A stretch of DNA of 64,000 nucleotides from Undibacterium sp. (GTDB lineage: Bacteria; Pseudomonadota; Gammaproteobacteria; Burkholderiales; Burkholderiaceae_D): NCBI RefSeq assembly GCF_030651495.1, contig NZ_JAUSFI010000060.1, positions 1 through 64,000 on the forward strand, in the 5' to 3' direction. The position numbers and the translations under genes were made by a program. The notes below the pieces were generated by a model. The model searched no databases. It was not told the origin of the DNA and was given only the letters and a program-made list of their open reading frames with translations. Shown here in pieces: positions 43,213 through 58,994 of this stretch. Every line of letters starts with the position of its first letter. The first letter of the stretch is position 1.

Positions 43213-43743
43213 TTACGCCGCGACCGTTTTAACAAAAAACTGTCTGGCTTTGCTCACTTTCGGCGCCACCACCAAAGTGCAGTAATCATGCTGATTATTC
43301 AGCCTGAAGTAATTGTGATGATAATCTTCCGCCGGATAAAATACCGGCACCACCGCCAACTCGGTCACTAGCGGCTCATCCCTTAGGCGAGCCGTTGCTT
43401 TCATCACTTGCCGCGCCATCGCTTGCTGTTCTGGCGTGTGAAAATAGATGACTGAACGATACTGCGTTCCGACATCATTGCCCTGCCGATTTAACGTGGT
43501 CGGATCATGAATCGTAAAAAATAATTCCAGCAAGGAGCGATAGCTGATCACCGCAGTATCAAACATCAATCGCACAACCTCAGCATGTCCGGTATCGCCC
43601 TGACTAATTTGCTCATAGCGGGGATTGTGTGTTTTCCCTCCCGAATAACCAGGCTCCACGCGCTTCACTCCGCGAATTTGCTGAAATACTGCCTCGGTAC
43701 ACCAGAAGCAGCCACCACCCAAAGTGGCGATCTCTAAAGCCAT
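43213..43743 (-). CDS. msrA: Peptide methionine (S)-sulfoxide reductase MsrA, copy 1
   Basis: 176 residues with the catalytic GCFWC (Cys12), followed by QVMKAT and the C-terminal region typical of MsrA. It reduces methionine-S-sulfoxide with thioredoxin in the cytoplasm. An AAGGAGAG site precedes the ATG. A paralogue about two-thirds identical by eye lies at 44960-45499 in the same orientation, with the XRE-like gene between them. Confidence 0.92.
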   Translation of the reverse strand: MALEIATLGGGCFWCTEAVFQQIRGVKRVEPGYSGGKTHNPRYEQISQGDTGHAEVVRLMFDTAVISYRSLLELFFTIHDPTTLNRQGNDVGTQYRSVIYFHTPEQQAMARQVMKATARLRDEPLVTELAVVPVFYPAEDYHHNYFRLNNQHDYCTLVVAPKVSKARQFFVKTVAA

Positions 43744-44959: not shown

Positions 44960-45499
44960 TCACCCTATCAATTTGCTGGCAAACAGCTTGCGCGCCTTGG
45001 CGACCTTTGGCGCCACCACCACCGCGCAATAGCCTTGCTGCGGATGCTGGCGGAAATAGTTTTGATGGTAGTCTTCCGCGATATAAAACATCGGCGCCGC
45101 CGTCAATTCCGTCACCAGAGTATCGTCCCACACCGATGCCATCGCCGCCATCACCTCCAACGCGACCGCTTGCTGCTCGGCGCTATGAAAATAAATCACC
45201 GAGCGATACTGCGTGCCGACGTCGTTGCCTTGCCGGTTCAGGGTGGTCGGGTCGTGAATCGTGAAAAAGATTTCCAATAATTCGCGGTAACTGATCACGC
45301 CAGGGTCAAAGCTCAGGCGCACCACTTCGGCATGGCCGGTCTTGCCTGTACAGATTTGCTCATAGCTAGGATTGTGCACCGAGCCGCCCGCGTAGCCTGA
45401 TTCCACCTTCAATACGCCACGTAGCTGCTGGAACACGGCTTCGGTGCACCAGAAGCAACCGCCGCCGAGAGTGGCGATTTCTATTGTTTTATCCATCAT
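44960..45499 (-). CDS. msrA: Peptide methionine (S)-sulfoxide reductase MsrA, copy 2
   Basis: 179 residues from the ATGATG at 45499 (AGGAG site). GCFWCTEAVF holds the catalytic Cys; FTIHDPTTLNRQGNDVGTQY is identical in copy 1. The longer in-frame start at 45529 is unsupported. It was the direct neighbour of the condensin-like operon before the integrative element inserted. Confidence 0.92.
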   Translation of the reverse strand: MMDKTIEIATLGGGCFWCTEAVFQQLRGVLKVESGYAGGSVHNPSYEQICTGKTGHAEVVRLSFDPGVISYRELLEIFFTIHDPTTLNRQGNDVGTQYRSVIYFHSAEQQAVALEVMAAMASVWDDTLVTELTAAPMFYIAEDYHQNYFRQHPQQGYCAVVVAPKVAKARKLFASKLIG

Positions 45500-45533
45500 G
45501 TTTTCTCCTATTGAAGGGCAACTGCACACGTTG

Positions 45534-45569
45534 CTTAGTAGTCTGTTTAGTAGTCTGCTTAGCAGGCTA
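45534..45569. repeat. Tandem 12-bp repeats upstream of msrA copy 2
   Basis: CTTAGTAGTCTG, TTTAGTAGTCTG and a degenerate CTTAGCAGGCTA follow one another. A further pair of ACTTAGACAA repeats lies at 45613-45622 and 45625-45634. They occupy the old divergent spacer between msrA copy 2 and the condensin-like operon. Confidence 0.45.
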
Positions 45570-45718
45570 TTTTCTTACATATTCAGATAATCTGTGCAGA
45601 TCACCTAAAACAACTTAGACAACCACTTAGACAAGCACTTCGATTTCCCCTATTGGCGGGCTAAATACGCATTTTTAGTTAAAACCCCGACAATACTCAA
45701 TCTGCCTGCAAGCGAGTA

Positions 45719-45752
45719 AAATGCTGCATGCTACAATTTGTTAATACTAACG
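45719..45752. other. Left attachment site (attL) of the integrative element
   Basis: The 13-bp AAATGCTGCATGC (45719-45731) is repeated directly at 54150-54162. To its right, exactly 11 bases after GCATGC, is AATACTAACG (45743-45752). The inverted form of that motif lies 11 bases outside GCATGC at the other end. The arm between core and integrase ATG is only 43 bp, as expected for an attP next to its integrase. Confidence 0.8.
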
Positions 45753-45774
45753 TGTTACAGAGAAAAGGTTTGCC

Positions 45775-47292
45775 ATGATATACGCATACTTGAGATTTTC
45801 ACAAATTGGACAGAGTGCTGGTTCGATTGACAGGCAGCAAACTGTTATTAATAACTACTGCACAGCACACGGCTTAGTTGTTGATAAAGAATTCCAAGAC
45901 CTCGGCAAAAGTGGGTATTCTGATAGCGGTAATATGTCTGCCACTTCTGAACTATCAAGGCTAATGGATGTAATCAAGTATGGCGATACATTATTGATAG
46001 AGCGGCAGTCTCGTCTAAGTAGGCAAACCTATAAAAAGGTAGGCAAACTTATGACTAAGCTGCTTGATGCTGGCATAACTATTATTACCTGTAATGACGG
46101 GCAGATAAGTAAAAATGATGTTGATTCCAACCTTGCAGATGACTTGAAGCGACTGATAGAAGCCCATGTGGCTTACAAGGAATCTAAGGATAAGTCTGAT
46201 TTTGCTGCTGCTGGATTTGTGACAAGGAAAAAGAAGGTCGCAGAAGGTTTAGTGGTAAGAGTGGGTGCAGCTTCTTGGCTCTCTTTCGATAATGGAAAAT
46301 ATAGACTGAATGAGTATGCCGATGTTGTGGCTAGAATGTTCAATATGTGTATTGCTGGCGCTGGATGTACAACGATAGCTAAAAGACTAAATGATGAAAA
46401 AGTGAAGACGTTCAAGAGGGACAAGGATTGGAGCAGTGCCGGTATTCTGTCTATTCTTAACAATGTCGCTTGTTATGGTGAATATGAAGGCAGGAATTAT
46501 TTTCCCCCTGCTGTTAGTAAGGATGTTTGGCTTGCTGCTAAAGGTGTTATTGCACTCAGAAAGACTATGAAAACCACTAGGCAAGCTGCACAAACGAATC
46601 CGTTTTCTGGGATTCTTTACTGTGGTTATTGTGAATCGAAAATGCATATATCCGGTAAGTGGGTTATTTGCTATGGTAAAAGAGCTGGCGGCTGTACAGC
46701 CCCTAATGTAGAGAGTAGCAAAGCTATACAAGCGCTGGATAAAATACTGACATACTTCAATACCTCTGCACTGACTACTAACGTAAAAACTCAGAATGAT
46801 GCTGATGCACTCTCAGGGTTGATTGTAATAAAGCAAAAGAAGCTCAAAGGTATTGAAGATGCTGCTAGTAATTCTGAGGAGTATGACCCACTGCTTACAG
46901 CTCTTGCACGAACCACAAGGGCAGAACTTCAAGACCTGCAAGCTAAAGCTCAAGAAGCTGCTGCGGCTGTAGCCGATGAACCAAGCAAACTAGATGTTAT
47001 GGATGTTAAAACAAATCGCTGGCTTCAGCGGATGAAGTTTTTATTCTCTATTGAAAGAAACGGGCTGTACTGTCATAGAGGAAATTCTATTGTTGCTGCT
47101 TGTGATTTGCGGAGTTTTAATGTGGGCATGCTTGCTTCGGAAACCAGCAGAAAGTTTATAAGAGAACCCCCCACACCATTGCACAACCACACCAGAGAGG
47201 AGCAGCTAGAAGCATTTATGAAGTTGACCAGAGGTGAGTATGTCGAAGGTCTTAGTGATGAGTACAACAAGGGTAAGACTAAATCAATGTAA
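45775..47292 (+). CDS. Large serine recombinase (site-specific integrase)
   Basis: 505 residues. The resolvase domain covers about 1-150 with nucleophile Ser9 (YLRFSQIGQSAG) and the conserved IERQSRLSR; a recombinase domain covers about 165-270; a zinc ribbon follows with CGYC near 283 and a second Cys pair (CYGKRAGGC); a helical C-terminus follows. Such enzymes integrate DNA between attP and attB without host factors. An AAAAGG site precedes the ATG. Base usage is AT-rich compared with the flanking msrA. The 3' end overlaps the convergent gene by 9 bp. Confidence 0.9.
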   Translation: MIYAYLRFSQIGQSAGSIDRQQTVINNYCTAHGLVVDKEFQDLGKSGYSDSGNMSATSELSRLMDVIKYGDTLLIERQSRLSRQTYKKVGKLMTKLLDAGITIITCNDGQISKNDVDSNLADDLKRLIEAHVAYKESKDKSDFAAAGFVTRKKKVAEGLVVRVGAASWLSFDNGKYRLNEYADVVARMFNMCIAGAGCTTIAKRLNDEKVKTFKRDKDWSSAGILSILNNVACYGEYEGRNYFPPAVSKDVWLAAKGVIALRKTMKTTRQAAQTNPFSGILYCGYCESKMHISGKWVICYGKRAGGCTAPNVESSKAIQALDKILTYFNTSALTTNVKTQNDADALSGLIVIKQKKLKGIEDAASNSEEYDPLLTALARTTRAELQDLQAKAQEAAAAVADEPSKLDVMDVKTNRWLQRMKFLFSIERNGLYCHRGNSIVAACDLRSFNVGMLASETSRKFIREPPTPLHNHTREEQLEAFMKLTRGEYVEGLSDEYNKGKTKSM

Positions 47293-47940
47293 GGTAGGCT
47301 TGGCAGGTTTTAGGAGGAATGGTATTGGAGCTGTATTGCCCTCTGCTCGTAGCCTTTCCTGCAAGAGCATAATAGCTGTCAAGTTAAACTGAAACACCAT
47401 GCCCTCTATAGTAACGTCATAAGTTACGCGCCCTATACGTGCTCTGGCTAATGCTACAAGCCCCGCTAAGTATTCAGCCTGTTCTGGTAGGTTTGTAAAT
47501 ATTAAGCCTACTTTTAAATATGCTTTAGCTTCTTTGATGGTTAGCTTTGGGCTGAGTATGTGTATCTGCCCTAGAGGTGGTAATGCGGCATTTACTTGCC
47601 CGTGTTTGTGCTTAGAATTAGACCAGCTAAACTTATTACCTGCATTCACTTCTGAGCTATTGGAAAACCTACCAGATAAGCGCAAGTGATTTAAACAGGA
47701 TTCATATTGGCTGATAGCTGATGCACGTGTCTTTACACCATTCAAGGGTGCACACTTAAATTCTATCAGTGGGAACAGGCTGCCTGTAGGTGGGTAGAAA
47801 TCTGTGACAGCTTTATATTCATCGCCATCTGAATTTAGTGTTACAGGGAGGTATTCGTAAGGCTTGGTTTGAGTGTAGAAAGAGCTAGAGAGGTGCTTGT
47901 TATAGAAAACGGTTTCGGCTGGTAATTTTGCTTTAGACAT
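47284..47940 (-). CDS. Uncharacterised protein of the integrative element
   Basis: 218 residues from ATG 47940 (AAGGA site). No family is recognised. There is no signal peptide or membrane segment. An internal LPPLGQIHILSPKLTIKEAKAYL stretch and a helical C-terminus (LARARIGRVTYDVTIEGMVF) are the most structured parts. It sits downstream of the iteron array and the primase gene on the same strand, so a replication or maintenance role is possible but unproven. Confidence 0.6.
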   Translation of the reverse strand: MSKAKLPAETVFYNKHLSSSFYTQTKPYEYLPVTLNSDGDEYKAVTDFYPPTGSLFPLIEFKCAPLNGVKTRASAISQYESCLNHLRLSGRFSNSSEVNAGNKFSWSNSKHKHGQVNAALPPLGQIHILSPKLTIKEAKAYLKVGLIFTNLPEQAEYLAGLVALARARIGRVTYDVTIEGMVFQFNLTAIMLLQERLRAEGNTAPIPFLLKPAKPTLH

Positions 47941-48042
47941 AGTGAGTCCTTCAAATTGGTTGAATAAATAATTTAAGTTGCTTGAATGTGTTGCTAGAAA
48001 CTCAGTGAAAAAGACCACTTCGTATTAGAGAATAAAATGCTG

Positions 48043-48161
48043 TCTGGGTGAATCACCCGAATCATTTTTAAAAAACCATTTAAAATCAAGGCTTAAGAGA
48101 AATTTCTGGGTGAATCTCTGGGTAAATCTTGGGTGAATCATTTTTACTTCTGGGTGAATCA
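48043..48161. repeat. Iteron-like array, consensus TCTGGGTGAATC
   Basis: Five copies: 48043-48055, then three head to tail with a 12-bp period at 48105-48116, 48117-48128 (one mismatch) and 48129-48140 (one mismatch), then 48149-48161. All point the same way. An inverted CACCCGAATCA overlaps the first copy's end. The flanks are very AT-rich (48061-48085). The array lies 3 bp from the 3' end of the helicase/primase gene and outside any gene, which fits a replication origin. Confidence 0.7.
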
Positions 48162-48164
48162 TTC

Positions 48165-49472
48165 TCAAAAATCAGAGGGGTTGTAATGAGTTCTAATGTC
48201 GTCCAAAGACATACCGATAGGGTGTATCAAGCGCCTTAACTTGTCGTCAATTCTCTTCTGCGAACTCTCTAAGCCCACCTCACGCAAAAGATGGGGTACT
48301 TGTTTGGAGGATGGCGGTTGCATCCCTTCTGCCTTGAAAGCCTCCATTAGCTCCAGATTGGTGAATACTTTATGATCGGCTACGAAGTGCTGAATAAACT
48401 CAATGTCTGGATTTGTGGACATGCCTATCATTGCCTTTAGTGTTTCAGTTTGTTCAATGCGCTTATGGTTAAAACCTGTAAGGTCGTATGTCATAAAGAA
48501 GTCGTATAGGGCATCCATTGAACCAGATAGGGCAAGCCAGTCTGAAAGGCACTGAATAAATTGCTGCGTTTCTGTAGCATTAACCCTATGCACTAAAGGC
48601 GTGAGCACAAACCATCTGCGTTCTGTGGACTCTAAATGTAATGGTCTGGCTTCATTGGATGCCAATATAAAACGAGTGTATGTCTGCACCATGCCAGCTT
48701 GTAAGCCTTTACGTTCTACGTATGCCCTTTCTTCTGAAAGCAAAGACTTCAATTGTGTTTGTGTATCTTCTGATTTGCTCTTAGGATCGTCTAACAGCAC
48801 CAACAAACTATCTTCCAAGACGGTCGAGAACTTGCCCATTATTTTTGAATAGCTGTTCACTACGGCAGTATGTAGAAGTAGTGGCTGCAACATATCGTTC
48901 ACCAAGAAACCTTTGCCGCAACCTACATCTGAGGACAGCATTAAGTGATAGGACGGTCTTTGCTTAGGATGCTGGAAAATATGAGCAAGCCACTGCAAGG
49001 CCTGATGGCACTCTGTAGGAACTGGAAACAAACGGTTGAAGAACTCATGTACCAAAGGCGATAGCATCACTGTAGGCTCTCCTGATGGCTTGTACTGCCT
49101 ATAGGTGTTCACGTACTGGCAATCAGAGTTTGGGTCTGTGTAATATGCGCCACATTCAGGCATGAACTTAGAACCAACAATATGCGGCAATGTGTAGGTG
49201 ATGTACTGAGTAGAGCGATATGTACATTTTTTCCCATTCTTGAAGAGCCAAGAATTAAAGGCATTATCAATGTACGTGAAAGGCAGACTGGTATCGTTAA
49301 AGCGGTTGTATATTTGAGTTTGATTTGACGAGGAGGAATCTAATTTGCAAAATCCTCTGTCTTTGAGATGCCGAACGAATAAGGCAATGACAGCTTTGTC
49401 TTCTATGTTTGGTTTGCTGGCTGATGCTGGGGTGGTGTTGTCAGAAGTTACGAGTGTAAGTGCTTGTGTCAT
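48165..49472 (-). CDS. SF3-like helicase/primase of phage-plasmid type (DUF5906-like)
   Basis: 435 residues. Walker A SSDVGCGKGFLVNDML lies near 190-205 and Walker B SLLVLLDDPKSKS near 238-250; ILASNEARPLHLESTERRWF is the sensor and arginine-finger region typical of the superfamily 3/DUF5906 helicases fused to or paired with primases. The N-terminal 150 residues lack the usual AEP primase Asp motif as far as I can see, so it may be helicase only. It probably replicates the element. Start ATG 49472 has AAAGGATC; it overlaps the 56-residue ORF by 32 bp. Confidence 0.78.
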   Translation of the reverse strand: MTQALTLVTSDNTTPASASKPNIEDKAVIALFVRHLKDRGFCKLDSSSSNQTQIYNRFNDTSLPFTYIDNAFNSWLFKNGKKCTYRSTQYITYTLPHIVGSKFMPECGAYYTDPNSDCQYVNTYRQYKPSGEPTVMLSPLVHEFFNRLFPVPTECHQALQWLAHIFQHPKQRPSYHLMLSSDVGCGKGFLVNDMLQPLLLHTAVVNSYSKIMGKFSTVLEDSLLVLLDDPKSKSEDTQTQLKSLLSEERAYVERKGLQAGMVQTYTRFILASNEARPLHLESTERRWFVLTPLVHRVNATETQQFIQCLSDWLALSGSMDALYDFFMTYDLTGFNHKRIEQTETLKAMIGMSTNPDIEFIQHFVADHKVFTNLELMEAFKAEGMQPPSSKQVPHLLREVGLESSQKRIDDKLRRLIHPIGMSLDDIRTHYNPSDF

Positions 49473-49611
49473 TATTTGATCCTTTAGCGGCTAGGCTGGC
49501 GATGATTGAAGAGATGTTTGTGTCTTGTTTCTTGGCAAGTGAGTAGAGATGCGCCCAAAGTTCTGAGGGTAAATACATGTATCTACGCTCTAAGTTGTTT
49601 ATGGTGGTCAT
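49441..49611 (-). CDS. Small ribbon-helix-helix-like protein
   Basis: 56 residues from ATG 49611. ERRYMYLPSELWAHLYSLAK followed by NISSIIASLAAKG resembles Arc/CopG ribbon-helix-helix proteins, which regulate plasmid copy or partition. The ATG overlaps the stop of the preceding 31-residue ORF (ATGA), and its own 3' end overlaps the helicase start by 32 bp, so all are translationally coupled. Confidence 0.6.
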   Translation of the reverse strand: MTTINNLERRYMYLPSELWAHLYSLAKKQDTNISSIIASLAAKGSNNDTSTYTRNF

Positions 49612-49703
49612 GGATTGCCTTGCATGAGTAAAAAGGTTAAGAGAGAAAATAAGAAGCCGACAGCACCAGCACAGTACAAACATTGGATGATTCGATCACT
49701 CAT
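49608..49703 (-). CDS. 31-residue membrane micro-protein
   Basis: MSDRIIQCLYCAGAVGFLFS and the following LLTFLLMQGNP form one transmembrane helix with a Cys pair (CLYC). The start ATG overlaps the stop of the upstream 52-residue ORF, and its stop overlaps the next start, both as ATGA. The short length makes it easy to miss; its reality rests on the chain of exact overlaps. Confidence 0.5.
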   Translation of the reverse strand: MSDRIIQCLYCAGAVGFLFSLLTFLLMQGNP

Positions 49704-49858
49704 GCTGCCAGCTCTTCCATTAATTGCATGGTTGCGTGTTTGGCTTTCATGTGTATGTCGATGTGTTTGCCGTTTTGTTTTGGAAAGTTGGTTTCTTCGA
49801 GGGTGATACCGATTGCACGTGCTATGCCTAAGAGGACAGCGATTTGTTTCTGATTCAT
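49700..49858 (-). CDS. 52-residue basic small protein
   Basis: Starts at ATG 49858 behind AGGAACC: MNQKQIAVLLGIARAIGITL, then a Lys/His-rich middle and a helical end. IAVLLGIARAIGI could be the turn of a helix-turn-helix. It is the first gene of the leftward replication cassette, about 100 bp downstream of a plausible promoter. It is not a known family to me. Confidence 0.5.
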   Translation of the reverse strand: MNQKQIAVLLGIARAIGITLEETNFPKQNGKHIDIHMKAKHATMQLMEELAA

Positions 49859-50372
49859 GTTTTGGTTCCTTAAAATGCAAAAAGCCCACCGAGAAATAAC
49901 AGGGTGAGCTGAGAGTGTTAAAATTAAATTGTAATATTACTTGACTTGAATACTAATTATACAGTAAGGGCGACTAGATTGAAATATCAGAGTGGCAACC
50001 AATTACAAATATATTCGATTGTCAAGGCTTTTTATTGTAACTAATTGTAACAAAATAATTATATTATGGAAGAATTACTATTAACGGTAAATACAAGCGA
50101 AACTTTACCCCCTTTGAGGGGAAATATTTAAAAATAAAATTTTTGAGAACTGACTCTGTGAGTGCATCACAAAATCGGGAAGCACAAAATATATGAAGGG
50201 TACGCCTGTGTGGCTAAGCTGCTACCTGTCTATAGAAAAGCCGGTTTTTACACCATTTTAAAATATGACCAAGACGGTGCGCTACGGGGCTTAGGATCAA
50301 TATAAATGATTTATACTATACACCCCATTGGCAAAGGGATAGCGCCCCTTGGAGGGTTTTACAGTAAGCTTA
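49859..50372. other. AT-rich regulatory spacer inside the element
   Basis: No convincing gene. It contains the probable promoter of the leftward replication cassette (49956-49984), a hairpin with CCCCCTTTGAGGGG near 50109-50122, and a GC-rich end near 50330-50360. The bulk is extremely AT-rich (50000-50060, 50120-50145), so it could also hold a second origin-like region. Confidence 0.4.
49956..49984 (-). promoter_or_regulatory. Promoter of the replication cassette
   Basis: On the leftward strand TTTCAA (49984-49979) and a perfect TATAAT (49961-49956) are 17 bp apart, about 98 bp upstream of the first small ORF start at 49858. Confidence 0.55.
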
Positions 50373-50921
50373 TTAGGCTGTTTTGAGTGTGTTATATATA
50401 GTTGCACGTGAGACACCGTACTCTTCTGCTAATGCAACTTTTGATTCTGACTGTCTCGCTCTGATCTGAGCTTGCTGCTCAAGTGTCAATGAGTCTTTAC
50501 GACCTTGGTGCTTTTTGCTAACTGCCCTACCTTCTGCTGACCTCTCATTGATTAGAGAACGCTCGAATGATGCTACAGCGCCAAGTAAGGTTAGCATTAG
50601 TGTATTCATTGGGTTGTTTGCTCCACCTGTAAAGGTTAGGTTCTCCTTGTGGAAGATAAGCGTTACACCCTTGCCTGTGAACTCCTCCACCAACTTCAAT
50701 AAGTCGCTTGTATTGCGAGCAAGGCGGCTAATCTCATGAATATGGATGGTATCGCCAGTACGAGCGTGCTTCTTCATTGCCTGTAGCTGTGGTCTGTTAG
50801 TATCTTTGCCGCTTACCTTGTCCTCAAACACTAAATCAAATGTCATACCATCAAGCTGACGGGCTGTGTTGCCTGTAATTGTCGAAACGCGGATATAGGC
50901 TAATTGTTGTCCTGTGCTCAT
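50373..50921 (-). CDS. Small serine recombinase (resolvase/invertase family)
   Basis: 182 residues. The resolvase domain has nucleophile Ser13 (AYIRVSTITG), IHEISRLARNTSDLL and FERSLINERSAEGR; the C-terminal helix-turn-helix is ALAEEYGVSRATIYNTL. It would resolve multimers or invert DNA. Repeated GTGTCTA motifs directly upstream (50973-51050) look like its binding sites. It is distinct from the large integrase at the left end. Confidence 0.88.
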   Translation of the reverse strand: MSTGQQLAYIRVSTITGNTARQLDGMTFDLVFEDKVSGKDTNRPQLQAMKKHARTGDTIHIHEISRLARNTSDLLKLVEEFTGKGVTLIFHKENLTFTGGANNPMNTLMLTLLGAVASFERSLINERSAEGRAVSKKHQGRKDSLTLEQQAQIRARQSESKVALAEEYGVSRATIYNTLKTA

Positions 50922-50972
50922 GTTATCACTCCTCTCGTTTAAGTGCTTAACAAGTATATAGGACTTAATAGA

Positions 50973-51050
50973 AAGTGTCTATCTATTTGGATTTTTCTTA
51001 TGTTAGACACTTCTTGAGGGGCAAGCGATAGACTGGCTTGAGTGTCTATC
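50973..51050. repeat. res-like repeated recombinase sites
   Basis: AAGTGTCTATC (50973-50983) and its inverted form GTTAGACACTT (51002-51012) form a 40-bp dyad. Further copies are an inverted GATAGACT (51027-51034) and GAGTGTCTATC (51040-51050). Paired inverted half sites spaced like resolvase subsites, 50 bp upstream of the resolvase gene, suggest a res site and an autoregulatory operator. Confidence 0.65.
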
Positions 51051-51192
51051 ATGTAGTGACTTGATGGACGTCAGTTACACGCCCTAAATATAATAGAATC
51101 ATTTCCTTAAATGCAATTTTGTAATTTTTTCAATTACAATGAACACCTGTATCTAAATGTAACTATATATTTAACTTATCGAATAACGAAAA

Positions 51193-51879
51193 ATGAAAAA
51201 ATTCTTTTTTATACCTTTACTTGTTTTGATCCTATCAGGTTGTGCAACTCAAGGTGTTAGCTCCTTTGACTATACAAAAAAAACTCCGATTGAGGTTAAA
51301 AATGAACTTCAGTTGAATCAACCGTATTTACAAGTTTGGGATAAGTTAATTAAAGAGTTATCAAAAAGTTTTTACATAATCAATAATATAGATAAAGAAT
51401 CAAGAATTATTAATTTGTCGTTTTCATCATCGAAACCTTCTGATTTTGTAGAATGCGGCTCTACGTCCCGTACATATAAGCAGGGTGAGCATATTGAAAG
51501 CATTACTTATGACGTTGCCGACAATTCCACGTTTAGGGTGGCAACTCAAAAACAAGAACATCCAACAATGACGAATTACTTTTCCGTTAGGCGAGTAACA
51601 AACTTAGAGGGTCGAACAAATATTTACTTGGCACCTCTTGATAGCGATAAAACTAAAACGTTAATTACAGTTAATACACGTTATGTGCTCAACATAAATA
51701 CTTTTTCTCAAGGGTATGCTCAACACATCAGCGGCAATCTTTTTACAAGAGGAAATGAAATCAATACTCCTAATTCAGTTTCTTTTAATACAAATAAACC
51801 AAATAGCGCACCTACAGATCAGATAACATGTTTTTCAAAAGGGAAGCTAGAGCAAGACGTTTTGCAATTGCTGAACTAA
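51193..51879 (+). CDS. Putative lipoprotein of the integrative element
   Basis: 228 residues. A lipoprotein signal (FFFIPLLVLILSGC) has the lipobox LSGC near residue 17. The rest is AT-rich and beta-rich with a few cysteines and no family I recognise. It could be surface-exposed cargo such as an exclusion protein; this is speculation. Confidence 0.65.
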   Translation: MKKFFFIPLLVLILSGCATQGVSSFDYTKKTPIEVKNELQLNQPYLQVWDKLIKELSKSFYIINNIDKESRIINLSFSSSKPSDFVECGSTSRTYKQGEHIESITYDVADNSTFRVATQKQEHPTMTNYFSVRRVTNLEGRTNIYLAPLDSDKTKTLITVNTRYVLNINTFSQGYAQHISGNLFTRGNEINTPNSVSFNTNKPNSAPTDQITCFSKGKLEQDVLQLLN

Positions 51880-52177
51880 TAGAACGATATAAGAAGTAAT
51901 TTATTTGCGCCGGATTAACCCTTTATTTGCTTGAAAATAGGTGAATTCATCGCATTTCAGAGGGTGTTTTGCATACTGGGAGGGGGTATATTAATTTAGA
52001 GTTAGCACCCATGCGGGTTTCAGGGTTGCATGAGGATAATTTCTATCTTAATTTAACCAATTTTAGAGTATGAATAAGAAGGCGCGTTAGTTTGCTTAAC
52101 CGTTGCCTACCCTCTAGATCTGATTAAATTTTTAGCGCATTGAAATTGAAATAACTTGTGAATTCTCAAAAGAAAAC

Positions 52178-53515
52178 ATGAAAACAAAAACTGTATTAAA
52201 AATAGCAGCATCAATATTACTGGCTGCCAGCATTAGCTCTTGCGGTGGAGGTGGAAGCAATGACAAATCTTCGTCCGCAGTGGAAATAGCAGCAACCCCC
52301 TGCGCCTTCGATGTAAAACCATTTCTTAATGGTGCGCAAGAGATGCAAGCAAATTCTGTATGGCATTGTAGTGGTGCTGGAGTAAAAGATTTCGATCTAC
52401 AGGCATTTGAAAATGGCAAAGGTTATTCATCGTCCGCAGGGGTTGGCGGCTTTCAATGGAAATCTGCCGCTGCTTGTGGGGCAATTACTGTGGAGGGGAC
52501 TGCCCCACAAACTATTTCACAAATAAAGGTGGATGCAGCAGCAGGGTTAGGCAGTTTTTTGAGTACGCAAATAAACGGATCAATTGCAACTACTTGTAGT
52601 CGTGCTGTCTCGAAACCCGAGCCAAGAACCTGGCACGTAGCGTTCTACGATTCGCTTAAACAAAGGATGATTGTTTTTGGGGGAATAGTGTCAGTCAAAT
52701 CATTTATTTCTTTTTTTAATAACTCCAATCCATTTGCCGATACTTGGGAGTACACAGGTGGAAGCTGGAAGCAAATTTATACAGCTGCCGCTCCAAATGT
52801 AAACCGTGATTCGAAAGTAATTTACGACAAGAAACGAAATGTCGCTGTGTTAACGACTCCTCAATATGGTGGTGATAATATTGAAACGTGGGAATTTAAC
52901 GGAACGGAGTGGGCGCAAATTAAAACAGCTCATACGCCGCTAGTAAAGGCTTATCATTTAATGGCATATGACAGTGCACGTGGCGTCACAGTTCTCTATG
53001 GTGAAAAAAGAGATACATATGTTAGGGAGACGTGGGAATTCGATGGAGTCGATTGGTTGCAAAAAGGGTTTTATCATTCAGGGGTGGACTCATTACCACT
53101 CGCGCCAATGACGACAGCGACGGCGATGGCTTATAATCCAGACGGACAATACACCTTGCTTGTTGAACGTACTGGTCGTGAAAGTCCACAGGCTTGGAGT
53201 TGGAATGGCTTGATCTGGTCGAGTGTGAGCGCTAAGGGACTTGAGGCTGTCTCAACCTATCCAGCGATGACTTACGATATTAATCGTCATAAAATGGCTC
53301 TATTGAGTCTTATAATATGGGAGTTCGATAATGACTTATGGCAAAATAAATTCGCTGGTTTACTAACATTGCCATATAACTTTGGGAACACAGTTGGCTC
53401 AACTCTTGTTTATGATGAAGCAAGATCCACAATGTTAATTTTTGGTGGTGAAATTAGTAATAGTGGTTATTCGAACGATCTATTAAAGTGGGATGGCGTG
53501 TTACTTACTAAATAA
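52178..53515 (+). CDS. Kelch-like beta-propeller lipoprotein
   Basis: 445 residues. The signal ends in SISSCGGGGS (Cys22), a probable lipobox. Repeated blade signatures such as ADTWEYTGGSWKQI, IETWEFNGTEWAQI and RETWEFDGVDWLQ, each after YD-type loops, indicate a kelch/galactose-oxidase-type propeller of about six blades. Propellers usually bind ligands or polysaccharide. It precedes, convergently, a small membrane protein. It is likely accessory cargo, not needed for mobility. Confidence 0.72.
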   Translation: MKTKTVLKIAASILLAASISSCGGGGSNDKSSSAVEIAATPCAFDVKPFLNGAQEMQANSVWHCSGAGVKDFDLQAFENGKGYSSSAGVGGFQWKSAAACGAITVEGTAPQTISQIKVDAAAGLGSFLSTQINGSIATTCSRAVSKPEPRTWHVAFYDSLKQRMIVFGGIVSVKSFISFFNNSNPFADTWEYTGGSWKQIYTAAAPNVNRDSKVIYDKKRNVAVLTTPQYGGDNIETWEFNGTEWAQIKTAHTPLVKAYHLMAYDSARGVTVLYGEKRDTYVRETWEFDGVDWLQKGFYHSGVDSLPLAPMTTATAMAYNPDGQYTLLVERTGRESPQAWSWNGLIWSSVSAKGLEAVSTYPAMTYDINRHKMALLSLIIWEFDNDLWQNKFAGLLTLPYNFGNTVGSTLVYDEARSTMLIFGGEISNSGYSNDLLKWDGVLLTK

Positions 53516-53632
53516 AATGATTTAACTAGCCACTACGAAAGCAGCCCAGTCATTCATTAATGACTGGCGCTTGTCAAGTAAGTCCCCGCGTCTTTAACAA
53601 GGTTTGTGATGATGCTCACCCTGTATTGATTA

Positions 53633-53938
53633 CTATTCTTTAACCTTCCACACCCCACCCTCTTTGATGGCGCAGACTCTGTTATAGCCAACATATGCGC
53701 CCATTCTATTTTTAGCATTAACTTCTCCGCAAAACATTGATTCTTCTAATCCGGTATTTCGCCATTGAGCACTAGACGGGTCTACTAAATTGTAGGTAAT
53801 AGCCGCTTTCGCTTTATTTTCGTCATACGCGAACATGTAATACAAGCCATATCCAAAAACTGATAACAGGCAAACCGCTCTTAAAATGTAATTTGTTGCT
53901 GATACCTGAGTGATAAATGCTTTTTGTGGTCGATTCAT
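53633..53938 (-). CDS. Small membrane-anchored protein with CGEVNAKN motif
   Basis: 101 residues. One transmembrane helix lies at about 18-37 (ILRAVCLLSVFGYGLYYMF), followed by LVDPSSAQWRN and FCGEVNAKNRMGAYVGYNRV. The last motif recurs in many small exported proteins of unknown function in Proteobacteria. It is the rightmost gene of the element. Confidence 0.6.
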   Translation of the reverse strand: MNRPQKAFITQVSATNYILRAVCLLSVFGYGLYYMFAYDENKAKAAITYNLVDPSSAQWRNTGLEESMFCGEVNAKNRMGAYVGYNRVCAIKEGGVWKVKE

Positions 53939-54135
53939 AAGTATTTAGATTCATATATATTGATAATGTTAACTATTTTACACCTCAGCTAAAGCATTCA
54001 TAATACTTGATGAAGCCAACTCTTCCAACCTATCGCCTTATGTACTCCAAGCGGCTTTTAATTCGTCTTTATAATCATGGTGCAATAGTTTGTTTAACAG
54101 ATAGTTGTACAATCCTGTCTTGTTTTTCCTCATAT

Positions 54136-54162
54136 CATTAGTATTCGATAAATGCTGCATGC
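54136..54162. other. Right attachment site (attR) of the integrative element
   Basis: The second AAATGCTGCATGC (54150-54162) includes ATG 54159, the start codon of the next gene. CATTAGTATT (54136-54145) is the inverted match of the attL arm motif and sits at the same 11-base distance from GCATGC (54157-54162). Confidence 0.8.
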
Positions 54163-55487
54163 AAAATTTTAGTGATGACCCAATTGTCCAGACTGATCAG
54201 AACGACAATGATCGCGCTCTGCAGACCTATTTTAAATCTGGCATTACCCCTGAAGACGTCGCCGCTGTTTTTCCGCTGAGGCGGGCCCAGCCTATGCTGC
54301 AGGCGTTTACCGGCTTGTTTCATGGCGGCTTTAACGGCGTCTTGCTGCGCCTGCTGGTCTTGCGCGAACTCAGCGCCGATGTCGAGACGCCGGCGCTGAG
54401 CCGTGCCGATATCAATGCCAAACTGGCGTATCTGGAAGCCGATAGCCTGGAGACCGTGCTGGCGCGCCTGCGCTCGACCGGCTTATTGATCTGGGATGCC
54501 AGCCAGGCGGTGTACCGCATCAGCCCGATCGCGCGCAATGTCCTGGCCGCCATTGAATCCCTGTTGCAGGTAGAACAGCAAGGCGAAATTGAATACATGC
54601 TGACCCAAGTCGCGGGCGCGCAAGCGGTCGGCGGCGTTTCGGTCGAGCAGTTGCATCACTTGCTGGGGCGCTTGATCGCGCTGACCGAAGAGTTTTCCGA
54701 TGCGATTGCCTCCGGCTCCGAGTTCCAGCTGCGCACGGCGCAGAAAAAATGGCATACCGCCTGTGACTGGGTGGAAAAAGGTTCGCAAATTATCCACGCC
54801 ATCACCAATGACAGCCGCGCCGATTCGGCCACACACAGGGCGGCGCAAGCGATAGGCCGGGCCCAGAGTGCCTTACTGAATATGCAAGGCATGTTTTCGC
54901 GCGCACTGAACCAGATCGAGAGGCAACGCGTGCATCTGGGGCAATCGGGTCTTTCCACTACCGATATCAAGACCTGGTTATTGCAAAGAGACGATCTGGC
55001 CTCGCTGGTCGACAATGCCTTGGCGCATCCGGTCACGCCGCTGTTTATTACGCCATCCGAGATGATCGACGTAGCCGAAAGTGAATTGCTGGCCACCCGC
55101 GTGACGGCAGTCGGCGGTGCCTTGCCGGCAGGTGAAAACGCGCCGGAAATCGCCAAGGATGACAGCGACGCCTTGCTCGAACTGGATCACTGGCTGGGTT
55201 TGCTGGCCAGCGCCAGGCCGACGGAAAAAGCGCTGCCCTTGCAGGATGTGTTATTGCCCGCCAGTTTCGCGATTGCCTCGTACCGCGCCTCGCTATTGCC
55301 GCTACTCGGTGACATCAATGAATCGGCCTTGCAAGGCGCGACCGCTGCGCTGGCCAGATTGCCACTGCAATTTAATTCCAAAGACAAAATGCAAAAGGTC
55401 AACGCCGAACATGTGGCCGCGATGTCGATTGCCAGCTTAGTTGCCACCACCGGCAACACCGGACCAGAAGAGAAACACCATGACTGA
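54159..55487 (+). CDS. Condensin-like kleisin subunit (MksF/JetA-like)
   Basis: 442 residues from ATG 54159. The N-terminal 110 residues look like winged helices (LAYLEADSLETVLARLRSTG then LLIWDASQAVYRISPIARNV), followed by long helices and a variable linker, matching the MukF/MksF/JetA layout. The kleisin would bridge the SMC heads and bind the E subunit. The start codon lies in the element's attR, so its original upstream sequence is now at 45500-45718. It overlaps the next gene by 8 bp. Assignment rests on gene order, size and predicted folds. Confidence 0.6.
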   Translation: MQNFSDDPIVQTDQNDNDRALQTYFKSGITPEDVAAVFPLRRAQPMLQAFTGLFHGGFNGVLLRLLVLRELSADVETPALSRADINAKLAYLEADSLETVLARLRSTGLLIWDASQAVYRISPIARNVLAAIESLLQVEQQGEIEYMLTQVAGAQAVGGVSVEQLHHLLGRLIALTEEFSDAIASGSEFQLRTAQKKWHTACDWVEKGSQIIHAITNDSRADSATHRAAQAIGRAQSALLNMQGMFSRALNQIERQRVHLGQSGLSTTDIKTWLLQRDDLASLVDNALAHPVTPLFITPSEMIDVAESELLATRVTAVGGALPAGENAPEIAKDDSDALLELDHWLGLLASARPTEKALPLQDVLLPASFAIASYRASLLPLLGDINESALQGATAALARLPLQFNSKDKMQKVNAEHVAAMSIASLVATTGNTGPEEKHHD

Positions 55488-56160
55488 AGATGCACAAATC
55501 CTGATCGCCCGCATGCTGGCGCACCAGACCCTGCGGCGCGAAGACAAGCTGGTCAAACGCGCGCTCTCGGATGAGCTATTTCGCGCCGAAGTCGATTTAC
55601 GCTTAAAAGCCTGCGGCATGAAGTTTCTCGATAACGTATATGCCGATCACGTCACGCTAGCCTTGACGCGTGACAGCGAATCGAAAGTGTTCGGCACCAA
55701 AGAAACCTGGCAAAATAATAATTTTGGCCTGGCACGCGATGGCGTGGCGCTGCTTGTCGTGTTATGGGCGCTGATCATTTTACCCAAGCGCGAACGGCAG
55801 GAAGCGCATCAACTGGCCGAAGAAGAACAGAACGATATGTTCGGCAAAGAAAAGCCGATGCCACGCGCCGAAGACACCTCAATCGGCGTGTCTTACCGCG
55901 CCCTGCTGGCCGATTTTGGCGATAAGCTCGGCAAAAAAACCCGCATGGACATGAACCTCGGCCAACTCGCACGCCTGGGCTTTATTGAACGCAAATCCGA
56001 TCTGCTGCTGGAAGGCCCGCTGCTCGACCTGATGATGGATACCGACACCCTGAAAGAACGCATCATCAATGGCGCGCTGTCGGATATTTTTCCTAGCCAG
56101 GTACCGCGCACGCCTGCCGCTCTGGCCACCGACACCGCCGCATCTACACTAGAAGAATAA
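55480..56160 (+). CDS. Condensin-like accessory subunit (MksE/JetB, DUF4194-like)
   Basis: 226 residues from ATG 55480. It has a winged-helix-like N-terminus; the central LARDGVALLVVLWALIILPK and the later GQLARLGFIERKSDLLLEGP segments resemble MksE/DUF4194 proteins, the kite partner of the kleisin. It is placed between kleisin and SMC genes, 5 bp before the latter, exactly as in mksFEB and jetABC operons. Confidence 0.6.
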   Translation: MTEDAQILIARMLAHQTLRREDKLVKRALSDELFRAEVDLRLKACGMKFLDNVYADHVTLALTRDSESKVFGTKETWQNNNFGLARDGVALLVVLWALIILPKRERQEAHQLAEEEQNDMFGKEKPMPRAEDTSIGVSYRALLADFGDKLGKKTRMDMNLGQLARLGFIERKSDLLLEGPLLDLMMDTDTLKERIINGALSDIFPSQVPRTPAALATDTAASTLEE

Positions 56161-56165
56161 GACTT

Positions 56166-58994
56166 ATGTTTCATATTAAATCGCTGGAACTGGTGCACTG
56201 GGATTACTGGCAGCGCATCAAGAACATCCCGCTTGACGCCAAGATCATCACCATCGCCGGCCAAAATGGCTCCGGCAAAACCACCCTGCTCGACGCGCTG
56301 CGCACCCTGTTTGGCCTGGAATGCTCGATGGGCCGCTCGTATAAACACTATGCGCGCCACTCCGGCCAGCAAAACTCGTGGATACGCGCGGTGGTCGACA
56401 ATAGTGCGGTCGGCCCGCAGATTTCAAACCGGCCATTCCGCATGTCGGGGCTATACGATGACGACGTCACGCTATTTTGCAAAATCGAAAAAAACGGCGG
56501 CGACTGGAAGCGCCAATACCTGATGCGCGGCGGTAAAGTCGAGATTGAGGACGTGCAGGAAGCCAACGATTGGCTGGGGGTAGAAAACTACCGCAAGCGC
56601 CTGTCGCATGCCGGGCTGTCGAATGCCATGGGCAAGGTCTTGGCGCTAGAGCAAGGCGAAACCGACAAGCTGTGCGAATACGCGCCGCGCCAGTTGCTCG
56701 ACTTGGTGTTTCAGGTTTTCGGCGACAAGGAAGTGCTGGATGCCTACGATGACGCCAAGCGCCATCAGCGCGATACCGAGACCGAGTTGCAGCACTTTGA
56801 AACCGAATTCGAAGGTGCGAAAACCAATCTGGAAGGCCTGCGCCTGCGCGTTGCCAACTACCATCAGTGGGAAGGCTTAAATAAAGAAAAGCGCGACTTA
56901 CAGGAAGAAATCCTGCCGACACTGCAATACCATGAAGCGCTGGAACGCGCTGGCGCCACCAGCCAGGCGCTGCGCGGCAGCAAGCGCTTTCTGAAGGCGC
57001 AGGACGAAGCCTTATCCGGCCGGCGCCAGCAACTGGCGCAGCAAGCCCAGGGCTTATCCGAGGCGCAGCAGGCAGAAGCCGGTTTCGAGGCAGAAGAAGC
57101 GACGCTGCGCGAAAAGCTCCAGCAAATCAACAGCAAGCTCAAGCCGCAGGAAAGCCTGCTGGAGCAAAAAGCGCGCTTGCAAAAACTCGCTGCCGAAGCC
57201 GATGCCGATGTCGCGAATGTGGCCGACGACCTGGAGAAAAAAGAAGCCGAACTGTCGCGCCACAAGCAAGAGCGCGACACCCTCAGCAGCCGCATCGCCA
57301 CCGAGATGGAGACCATCAGCGCCCTGCAAGGCAAGAGCGCGCTGGCCGATCCGGAAAACGTCCGCCTGATGCGCCGTGCGCTCAATGATGCCGGCATCTC
57401 GCACAGCATGCTGCCGGAAATCGTCGAAGTGATCGACCCAAAATGGCAAGGCGCGGTCGAAGGCGTGTTGCGCGGCTACACCGCTATCATTCTGCTCGAC
57501 AAGGCCAGTGACGCCAGCGCCGCTTACCGCATCGGTGAGAAACAGCGTTACAGCCACTTCATCGTGCCGGACCGCGTCAACGCCCCTAGCGTCAAGGATG
57601 GCAGCCTGTTGTCGGTGGTCAACTTTAGCGCCAAGGCACCGGGCTGGCTGATCGACCAATTGCAGCATATCGATACCGTCGATACCATCGACAAGGGCAT
57701 GAAGCAGAGCAAGTCGCAGGAATGGATTACGCCTGACGCCTACCATTTTGAACGGCGCGGCGGCCGTTCGCTGTTTGTCGAAGCCTCACGCTACCGTTTC
57801 GGCAGCGCTGGCCGCACCCAGCGCCTGGAAGCCTTGCAAAAATCGCTGCCGCGCCTGCAATCGCAAGAAGATCAGCTGACCATCAAGATCAGCAAGCTGG
57901 CCGGCGAGATCAGCGCCTACAAGGCCAGACTGGCCGGCGTCGATGCGGCCAAAGAACTCAGCGCACGCCATGCCGAATTTGAAGAAGCCAGCCGCAATAC
58001 GCAGCCGCTGAAACAGCAACGCATAGCAGTCGGCGGCCGTCTCGGCGAACTGGCACCGTTGCTGAAATCCGCCACCGAACAACGCACGGTAGCGCACCTG
58101 AAATGGGAGCAGGCCAAGGCCGCGATTGCCGACGCCGAAGCCACTTTACGCGGCGCAGAAAAACGCCTGGTCGAAGAGCGCAAGACGCAATTTGAGACGC
58201 TCAGAAGCATGCGTGAAACCTGGCAAAAATTACCGCCCAACTGGAAGCGCAGTGCGCACCGCAAAGAGCTGGTGGCCGAGCATGAAAACGTCCATCAGAT
58301 CGAACTGCGCCTGCGCAGCCTGGGCAATAACCTGAGCCGCGAGGATTGGGAATGCGACGCCACGGTGGTCGATCAATACGTACGCCTGAACGCCTTATTG
58401 CAAGGCCGCCAGGCCGAAACCGACGAGCGCCGCTACCAGAATAACCGCGCCATGGAAGCCACCGTCAACGCCCGCAGCGCGTATATGGACCGGCTGCGTT
58501 ACACGATTAAAGCGTATAGCAAGAACATCAGGCAGCTCGGCGAGCTGGCCGGCATTGAAGTCCACACCGACCCGGTCAAGCTGGAAAACGACGATACGCA
58601 ACTGGCGCAGGCCGGCCTGCACGTGCGCTTCAAGTTCGACGGCAAAGGTGCGATCGGCATGAACGACGGCGAAGCCTCGGGCGGCCAGCAAGTCATGAAG
58701 TCGCTGATCCTGCTGATCGGCTTGCTGAAATCGGAAGACGGCTCGGGCGGCTTCGTCTTCATCGACGAACCGTTTGCCCATCTGGATATCCGCAATATCC
58801 AGCTGGTCGGCGAGTTCCTGAAAAACACCGACGCCCAATACCTGATGACCACCCCGCTGACGCACAACACCGACGTCTACGATCCCTCAGAACTGACCCT
58901 GATCACCAGCAAGAAGAAAAAAGACACCGAATGGGCTCAACCGATTTTTGTCTTGCAGCGAAGGGTAGAAAAGATGAAGGACACACGGGTTTAA
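56166..58994 (+). CDS. SMC-like ATPase (MksB/JetC-like)
   Basis: 942 residues. Walker A GQNGSGKTT lies at 32-40; long coiled coils rich in Gln, Ala and Glu flank a hinge-like globular region at about 405-560 (DPKWQGAVEGVLRGYTAIIL); the ABC signature EASGGQQ is near 838 and Walker B GGFVFIDEP near 863 with the following Asp-rich D-loop HLD. It is shorter than MukB and about the size of MksB. It would translocate or loop DNA with the two upstream products. No nuclease gene (JetD/MksG) follows on this strand. Confidence 0.78.
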   Translation: MFHIKSLELVHWDYWQRIKNIPLDAKIITIAGQNGSGKTTLLDALRTLFGLECSMGRSYKHYARHSGQQNSWIRAVVDNSAVGPQISNRPFRMSGLYDDDVTLFCKIEKNGGDWKRQYLMRGGKVEIEDVQEANDWLGVENYRKRLSHAGLSNAMGKVLALEQGETDKLCEYAPRQLLDLVFQVFGDKEVLDAYDDAKRHQRDTETELQHFETEFEGAKTNLEGLRLRVANYHQWEGLNKEKRDLQEEILPTLQYHEALERAGATSQALRGSKRFLKAQDEALSGRRQQLAQQAQGLSEAQQAEAGFEAEEATLREKLQQINSKLKPQESLLEQKARLQKLAAEADADVANVADDLEKKEAELSRHKQERDTLSSRIATEMETISALQGKSALADPENVRLMRRALNDAGISHSMLPEIVEVIDPKWQGAVEGVLRGYTAIILLDKASDASAAYRIGEKQRYSHFIVPDRVNAPSVKDGSLLSVVNFSAKAPGWLIDQLQHIDTVDTIDKGMKQSKSQEWITPDAYHFERRGGRSLFVEASRYRFGSAGRTQRLEALQKSLPRLQSQEDQLTIKISKLAGEISAYKARLAGVDAAKELSARHAEFEEASRNTQPLKQQRIAVGGRLGELAPLLKSATEQRTVAHLKWEQAKAAIADAEATLRGAEKRLVEERKTQFETLRSMRETWQKLPPNWKRSAHRKELVAEHENVHQIELRLRSLGNNLSREDWECDATVVDQYVRLNALLQGRQAETDERRYQNNRAMEATVNARSAYMDRLRYTIKAYSKNIRQLGELAGIEVHTDPVKLENDDTQLAQAGLHVRFKFDGKGAIGMNDGEASGGQQVMKSLILLIGLLKSEDGSGGFVFIDEPFAHLDIRNIQLVGEFLKNTDAQYLMTTPLTHNTDVYDPSELTLITSKKKKDTEWAQPIFVLQRRVEKMKDTRV

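Follow-up and report, generated by a model that had tools for sequence, protein, structure and literature searches.

An 8.4-kb element in Undibacterium, probably inserted into the start codon of an mksF-like gene by the large serine integrase that it encodes

Among the described systems closest to the locus reported here is A118/LI, which targets comK in Listeria. In the reports on it, a large serine recombinase (LSR) acts on a pseudo-palindromic attP of about 50 bp carrying a distal motif for the zinc domain, and on a shorter attB (PMC3783163, PMC3556126). The zinc motif of LI is given there as TTTAGTATC, and its zinc domain as binding attP positions 16-24, in a count that by our reading starts one lower (PMC3783163). 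Symmetric A118 cores yielded deletion and inversion products at 64.5/35.5% and 52.5/47.5% (PMC3556126). Elements of another kind, which target dusA or prfC (IMEVchUSA3 and SXT), are described in PMC8409611 as entering a host gene at its 5′ end, where the upstream sequence is replaced and a promoter supplied, by which the target stays expressed with an altered N-terminus; the SGI1-like dusA elements use their own Int together with the recombination directionality factor RdfN. Here we compare these systems with a locus in a 64,000-nucleotide stretch of Undibacterium DNA (contig NZ_JAUSFI010000060.1, the whole of which is called the window), where the start codon of an mksF-like gene has very probably been entered by an 8.4-kb element acting through its own large serine integrase. 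This judgement concerns the integration and its target and excludes effects on expression.

The boundaries, the target, the empty sites in relatives, the class of the enzyme and the symmetry of the attachment sites are supported. The element is of an ordinary type and its target is unusual. Thousands of large serine integrases are catalogued in PMC10083194; no report of integration at an mksF-like target was found in the literature searched, and the site may stand in that catalogue, whose tables were unsearched.

Boundaries and empty sites

The 13-bp direct repeat AAATGCTGCATGC stands at 45719-45731 (attL core) and at 54150-54162 (attR core), both on the forward strand, and has exactly these two matches in the 4,790,916-bp assembly, where the reversed AAATGCTGCATGC, taken as a control, has none. 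The earlier note had drawn this repeat around an AT-rich block; its coordinates are right and the block is present: between 46 and 54 kb the 1-kb bins have a GC content of 33.7-42.3%, and the remaining bins of the window have 42.5-60.6%. With the crossover placed at the A|T of GCATGC, the exact base being one that we infer, the element covers 45729-54159 (8,431 bp). The predicted exchange then falls between 45728 and 45729 in attL, within an ATG at 45728-45730, and between 54159 and 54160 in attR, within the mksF start codon, so that the empty site joins 45728 to 54160 and the circle joins 54159 to 45729. The junctions proposed earlier (45718/54163 and 54150/45732) were slightly wrong, with core bases dropped. 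A crossover left of the T at −3, which is present in both cores, was rejected, since one copy derives from attB either way.

Within 64 kb a 13-bp repeat alone is modest evidence, given that three further repeats of 11-12 bp occur just upstream of the integrase, within 400 bp; the case is carried by the empty sites. An mksF-like gene was found in 39 of the 43 genomes of the genus, the own genome included, and its start could be read in all 38 relatives, in one of them with only 25 bp upstream. A TA[A/G]AATGC box lies at most 14 nt from the ATG in 35 of the 38, and since box and ATG are contiguous there, nothing is inserted at that place. For the other three (G187, G276 and G282) the sequence upstream of the mksF ATG is unrelated to the genus pattern; the 19.4-19.5 kb or so upstream of the gene held no match to the integrase or to three other element proteins, and no recombinase was seen by eye in the lists of upstream open reading frames (at least 90 or at least 110 aa), on which no domain search was made. 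The suspicion of other insertions in these three genomes was set aside in favour of ordinary intergenic divergence. The comparison with relatives lacking the element, which had been suggested as a check, finds the target free of it in all 38 readable relatives.

The gene order pdxH-msrA1-HTH-msrA2-mksF is kept in the two nearest relatives, G119 and G293, where msrA and the helix-turn-helix (HTH) gene were recognised by Pfam and the names pdxH and mksF are our assumption. The window likewise has a pair of msrA paralogues (43213-43743 and 44960-45496) that flank an HTH gene, in the order seen in those relatives. AT-rich sequence unlike the genus consensus stands before the mksF ATG in three species (loci L061, L062 and L063), L062 and L063 being alike by eye, with no integrase match nearby.

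Attachment sites and integrase

The integrase (P0001, 505 aa) is encoded at 45775-47292 on the forward strand, and 43 bases (45732-45774) separate the left core from its ATG. The presence of a large serine integrase at this distance, claimed from the start, is borne out by domains, conserved residues and fold matches, which agree. Resolvase (PF00239), Recombinase (PF07508) and zinc ribbon (PF13408) domains all score above cut-off. In 14 aligned sequences S9, R7, R80, R83, C283, C286 and C299 are invariant and C307 nearly so; we take the first four to be catalytic and the cysteines (C283, C286, C299 and C307) to be zinc residues. The structure model (mean pLDDT 71.5) has long helices at 337-365 and 372-398, in keeping with the coiled coil of this class, and its best PDB fold matches are Bxb1, phiC31 and other serine integrases, the LI integrase among them, through the LSR-DNA structure 4kis. 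Domain order is like that of Bxb1 and phiC31; the full-length model-to-target TM-scores (0.16-0.36) are low, which is expected of a flexible multidomain model, and sequence identity in those alignments is 13-17%. Judged by sequence and model, the enzyme belongs to the large serine recombinases. Compared with the 13 aligned relatives, fewer residues separate zinc cysteines two and three (within residues 283-307), and the hairpin of the zinc domain may accordingly be reduced.

The attachment sites rebuilt from the two ends have one common centre, and attP is the longer, with an extra distal motif. Mirrored about the A|T of GCATGC, attP matches at 16 of 24 positions, which corroborates the symmetric attP of about 48 bp described earlier and was reached by 12 of 20,000 shuffles; attB matches at 10 of 12 (64/20,000), 11 of 15 (165/20,000) and 11 of 20 positions (1,601/20,000). 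In these shuffles the flanks were permuted with dinucleotides preserved, three core bases per side being held. When 25 centres were tried, the A|T ranked first for attB, whether the arms were 15 or 24 long, and for attP at a length of 24; at 15 it ties, for attP, with a centre 12 bases off (8 matches each). The right arm of attP (45729-45752, forward strand) contains AATACTAA at 45743-45750 and its left arm, which is the right end of the element (54136-54159, forward strand), contains TTAGTATT at 54138-54145. Both motifs lie 11 bases from GCATGC, and the further G, counted as the tenth base from AATACTAA, is present at 45752 with its mirror C at 54136, as had been described. The attB arms likewise carry TAAAAT and ATTTTA at mirrored positions; the right arm (54160-54174, forward strand) consists of the first codons of mksF, and the left arm lies in the host flank 45678-45728. 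Read outward, all four half-sites start with ACG and have T[A/T]AA at positions 7-10, a common pattern that is consistent with a recombinase domain reading attP and attB alike, and a motif found in attP only occupies positions 15-22.

This attP-only motif lies near the positions bound by the zinc domain of LI, and TTAGTAT, a part of the LI motif, also occurs in each attP arm here, which is a resemblance and not a test. The locus differs from A118/LI in that attB lies at a start codon instead of inside comK and that the centre is a palindromic AT instead of GG. With a palindromic AT at its centre, the core should leave the orientation free, and both deletion and inversion would be expected, by analogy with the symmetric A118 cores.

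The joined flanks were also compared with the same region of G293. From −30 to +19, counted from the A of the ATG, there are two differences, at −13 (G to A) and −3 (G to T), and both increase the symmetry of attB. Over 12 positions the own attB scores highest of 39 (10, against 9 in seven relatives); over 15 it ties with two relatives, and over 20 two relatives exceed it. This amounts to no more than a hint.

Recombination of attP with attB by its own integrase would have put the 8,431-bp element into the Undibacterium chromosome, with the exchange at the A|T of GCATGC inside the mksF-like start codon. The attB dyad would be made of the −10-like box of the gene and its first codons, and attP of the same inner motif with the distal one added. 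The attribution of the integration to the adjacent large serine integrase, made in the earlier note, finds support in the domains, the residues, the predicted fold, the common dyad centre and the 38 empty relatives. That the insertion was made in another way, for example by the small resolvase (50373-50921) or through transposition with a 13-bp target duplication, is very unlikely: a second serine recombinase is present and a direct repeat alone names no enzyme, but the large integrase lies 43 bp from the core, a target duplication gives neither the symmetry of attP and attB about a common centre nor the longer motif of attP, and the frames searched gave no recognisable transposase.

Several observations weigh against integration as proposed. 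The symmetry of attB is short and fades beyond 15 positions, and the zinc motif that the LI model has in attB, moved inward by 5 bp, is not clear here. The integrase is 22-28% identical to its 13 aligned relatives, and a sequence search of the PDB gave no match. No second copy of the element was found in 42 genus relatives, nor any close relative of the integrase in the collections searched, so a single occupied site defines the boundary and there is no second one to fix it. The assembly, of metagenome type, consists of 179 contigs with an estimated contamination of 8.5%, and it could be argued that the junctions are an assembly artefact or a binning error. The flanks, however, form a single locus, uninterrupted in the nearest relatives and standing on one contig here, and the 13-bp overlaps fit recombination, which makes such an error barely credible.

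Within the genus (43 genomes) the integrase occurs in the own genome only, three relatives giving partial matches at 28-33% identity. With the own genome counted, matches were found in 4 of the 43 genus genomes, in 34 of 294 from the family sample and in 19 of 399 from the order sample. Besides the own copy the closest integrase is 34% identical over residues 2-357, and no close relative was found in genome_contigs or viral_contigs. Matches to 26 plasmid and 50 phage records include none covering 80% of the query and are, among those listed, 23.5-29.1% identical. A search for the att sites of related integrases (L094-L096) through direct repeats gave candidates of 11-14 bp, none of them convincing. 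In the own genome, attP arms sought with at most two mismatches gave one chance-like place, against 2 and 2 in controls. No circle junction was found in the assembly besides attL and attR, though a rare circle could well leave no trace in an assembly. No tRNA was found in the window, and no RNA family reached the gathering score in 45400-54500.

The target operon and its expression

The mksF-like gene (P0005, 442 aa, 54159-55487) starts with the ATG at 54159-54161, which lies in the recombination core. It is followed on the same forward strand by an mksE-like gene (226 aa, 55480-56160), so called from gene order only, and by an mksB-like SMC-type ATPase (942 aa, 56166-58994) with family matches. 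From gene order, size and the SMC-type ATPase, the operon looks like mksFEB. The mksF-like and mksE-like proteins, the latter searched as the frame 55477-56160, had no match in protein family searches. The top Foldseek match of the mksF-like model (pLDDT 50) is a 440-residue MukBEF chain (E 2.5e-3), and weak matches include the MukF structures 3rpu, 1t98 and 3euh with many winged-helix regulators between; what counts against the name is that, gene order aside, its support consists of weak fold matches that all fall short of E 0.001. The mksF-like match of one genus relative (L054, genome G298) has one in-frame TAG.

Complexes of the MksBEFG/Wadjet kind act against plasmids (on MksBEFG, PMC10123090). 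No match to the JetD/MksG nuclease family PF09983 was found in the assembly, which is 95% complete (among 14 control genomes, C. glutamicum gave a match), so the operon looks chromosome-organising and not of the plasmid-defence type. No mksF-like protein was found in the plasmid collection.

The host flank that forms the left attB arm (45678-45728, forward strand) contains a conserved CAATACTCAA block and the TAAAAT box, which ends 5 nt before the ATG and is included in attB; together these are the presumptive native mksF promoter. Across 34 genus sequences, left after three rows without the box and one short row had been dropped from the conservation profile, every position from −70 to −44 is below 0.4 bit and the conserved blocks start within about 42 nt, where CAATACTCAA and then CAAGCGGG precede TAAAATGC. 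In other genera a TA[A/T]AAT box ends 6-7 nt before the start codon in 10 of 22 loci, which were hand-picked from 80. A conserved −10-like box 5 nt from the ATG suggests, as far as sequence can, that the mksF mRNA may be leaderless. Against this speak the anchoring of the aligned rows on the box, by which its positions are conserved by construction, and the 12 of 22 loci of other genera in which no similar box was found close to the start. Sigma-70 consensus scans, moreover, called no promoter at the native mksF site, which keeps the leaderless reading at the level of a suggestion.

After insertion the native box and ATG would lead into the integrase through a leader frame of 16 codons (45728-45778, forward strand), which is opened by the core ATG and whose TGA overlaps the integrase ATG, and we infer from this arrangement that the host promoter drives the integrase. 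The mksF-like gene would keep an ATG and sit behind the right end of the element, parted from its presumptive promoter. In attR the TAAAAT box has turned into ATAAAT, the conserved block upstream of it has been lost, and inspection by eye shows nothing like a Shine-Dalgarno stretch before mksF. With the box altered, the block lost and no clear replacement, either silencing or rewiring of mksFEB expression is likely. An N-terminal extension of mksF from within the element, where the frame is open back to 54105, was set aside because no ribosome site was seen.

Since the dusA and prfC elements bring their own promoter, rewiring is a serious alternative to silencing. The right end of the element could likewise supply a replacement promoter so that mksFEB stays on, a possibility to which we give somewhat less than an even chance. 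A promoter-like pair, TTTACA-16-CATAAT (10/12), at 53977-54004 faces mksF from about 155 nt upstream, attP has AAATGCTGC directly before the ATG, by which the last bases before the start are kept, and the dusA and prfC elements provide a precedent (PMC8409611). Three promoter-like sites were found against 1.4 (sd 1.2) expected by chance, however, and the state of attR described above argues against it as well. In those elements the target keeps its expression with an altered N-terminus, whereas here the crossover lies inside the start codon and there is no evident promoter to replace the native one.

Returning to silencing or element control, one may speculate that promoter and start codon are exchanged reciprocally. 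A leaderless condensin promoter would be captured for the integrase via a coupled leader peptide, and the condensin operon would be off or under control of the element until excision; either orientation would be possible, and only one of them would make the swap. Silencing might also shield the circle of the element, an idea against which stands that the MksG nuclease was not found in the assembly. Taken as a whole, we regard this scheme as doubtful.

Element content and biological meaning

Besides the integrase the element encodes, on the reverse strand, a frame of an unknown family (P0002, 219 residues, 47284-47943, with an ATG at its second codon), a DUF5906 primase-helicase-like protein (P0003, 435 aa, 48165-49472) that is the presumptive replication initiator, frames of 80 aa (49441-49683) and 52 aa (49700-49858) with no Pfam match, and a small serine resolvase/invertase (P0004, 182 aa, 50373-50921) with family matches. 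Cargo on the forward strand comprises a lipoprotein-like frame of 228 aa (51193-51879; lipoprotein-like by eye, with no family match) and one of 445 aa (52178-53515) that is lipoprotein-like by eye and kelch/beta-propeller-like (E 5e-11, below the curated cut-off). A 101-aa frame on the reverse strand (53633-53938) matches PHROG families of unknown function.

Homologues of the primase-helicase were found in three loci of the family, at 52% (L091), 49% (L092) and 40% identity (L093), each with a P0002 homologue beside it and in part with the 80-aa frame, the 52-aa frame or the resolvase; the L093 resolvase is 51% identical to that of the window. The 80-aa frame has matches in L091, L092 and L094, and the 52-aa frame in L092. 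Tyrosine integrases appear by eye in the frame lists of L091 and L092, so this DUF5906 replicon seems to change integrases. In L092 (4840-6990) a tyrosine integrase frame adjoins, again by eye, a gene like tRNA-dihydrouridine synthase, which fits the dusA insertion habit; the Int proteins of the SGI1-like dusA elements are likewise tyrosine recombinases. No primase relatives were found in viral_contigs. Two Klebsiella plasmids (NZ_CP122577.1 and OW849137.1) have a primase 36-39% identical over 85-93% of its length and a serine recombinase, annotated in one and matched in the other; they differ in being free circles of 6.5-6.6 kb with no match to a large serine integrase.

No relaxase or conjugation gene was found in nine element frames searched with Pfam and PHROGs (seven also with NCBIfam), shorter frames not being searched. 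No structural or packaging gene was found either: for the nine frames PHROGs gives integrase, primase, invertase, DNA-binding and unknown families only. From this content we read the element as integrative and plasmid-like; once excised it would form a circle, for whose replication the DUF5906 protein would serve. That it is by now a relic, integrated in this way and unable to excise or move, would agree with the lack of another copy in the 42 genus relatives, with the fact that no excision factor was recognised in the element frames searched and with the missing circle junction in the assembly. The integrase is nevertheless full length with its catalytic and zinc positions kept, and the primase, the resolvase and the att arms look intact, so that we think this fate not very likely.

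The locus provides an attP/attB pair specified in full, belonging to an integrase that is distant from the others found here, together with a target that is conserved across the genus. Because its core is palindromic, the rule by which serine integrases set orientation could be tested on a natural example. If the exchange of promoters were true, a mobile element would through it control a chromosome-organising complex of its host with a compact switch.

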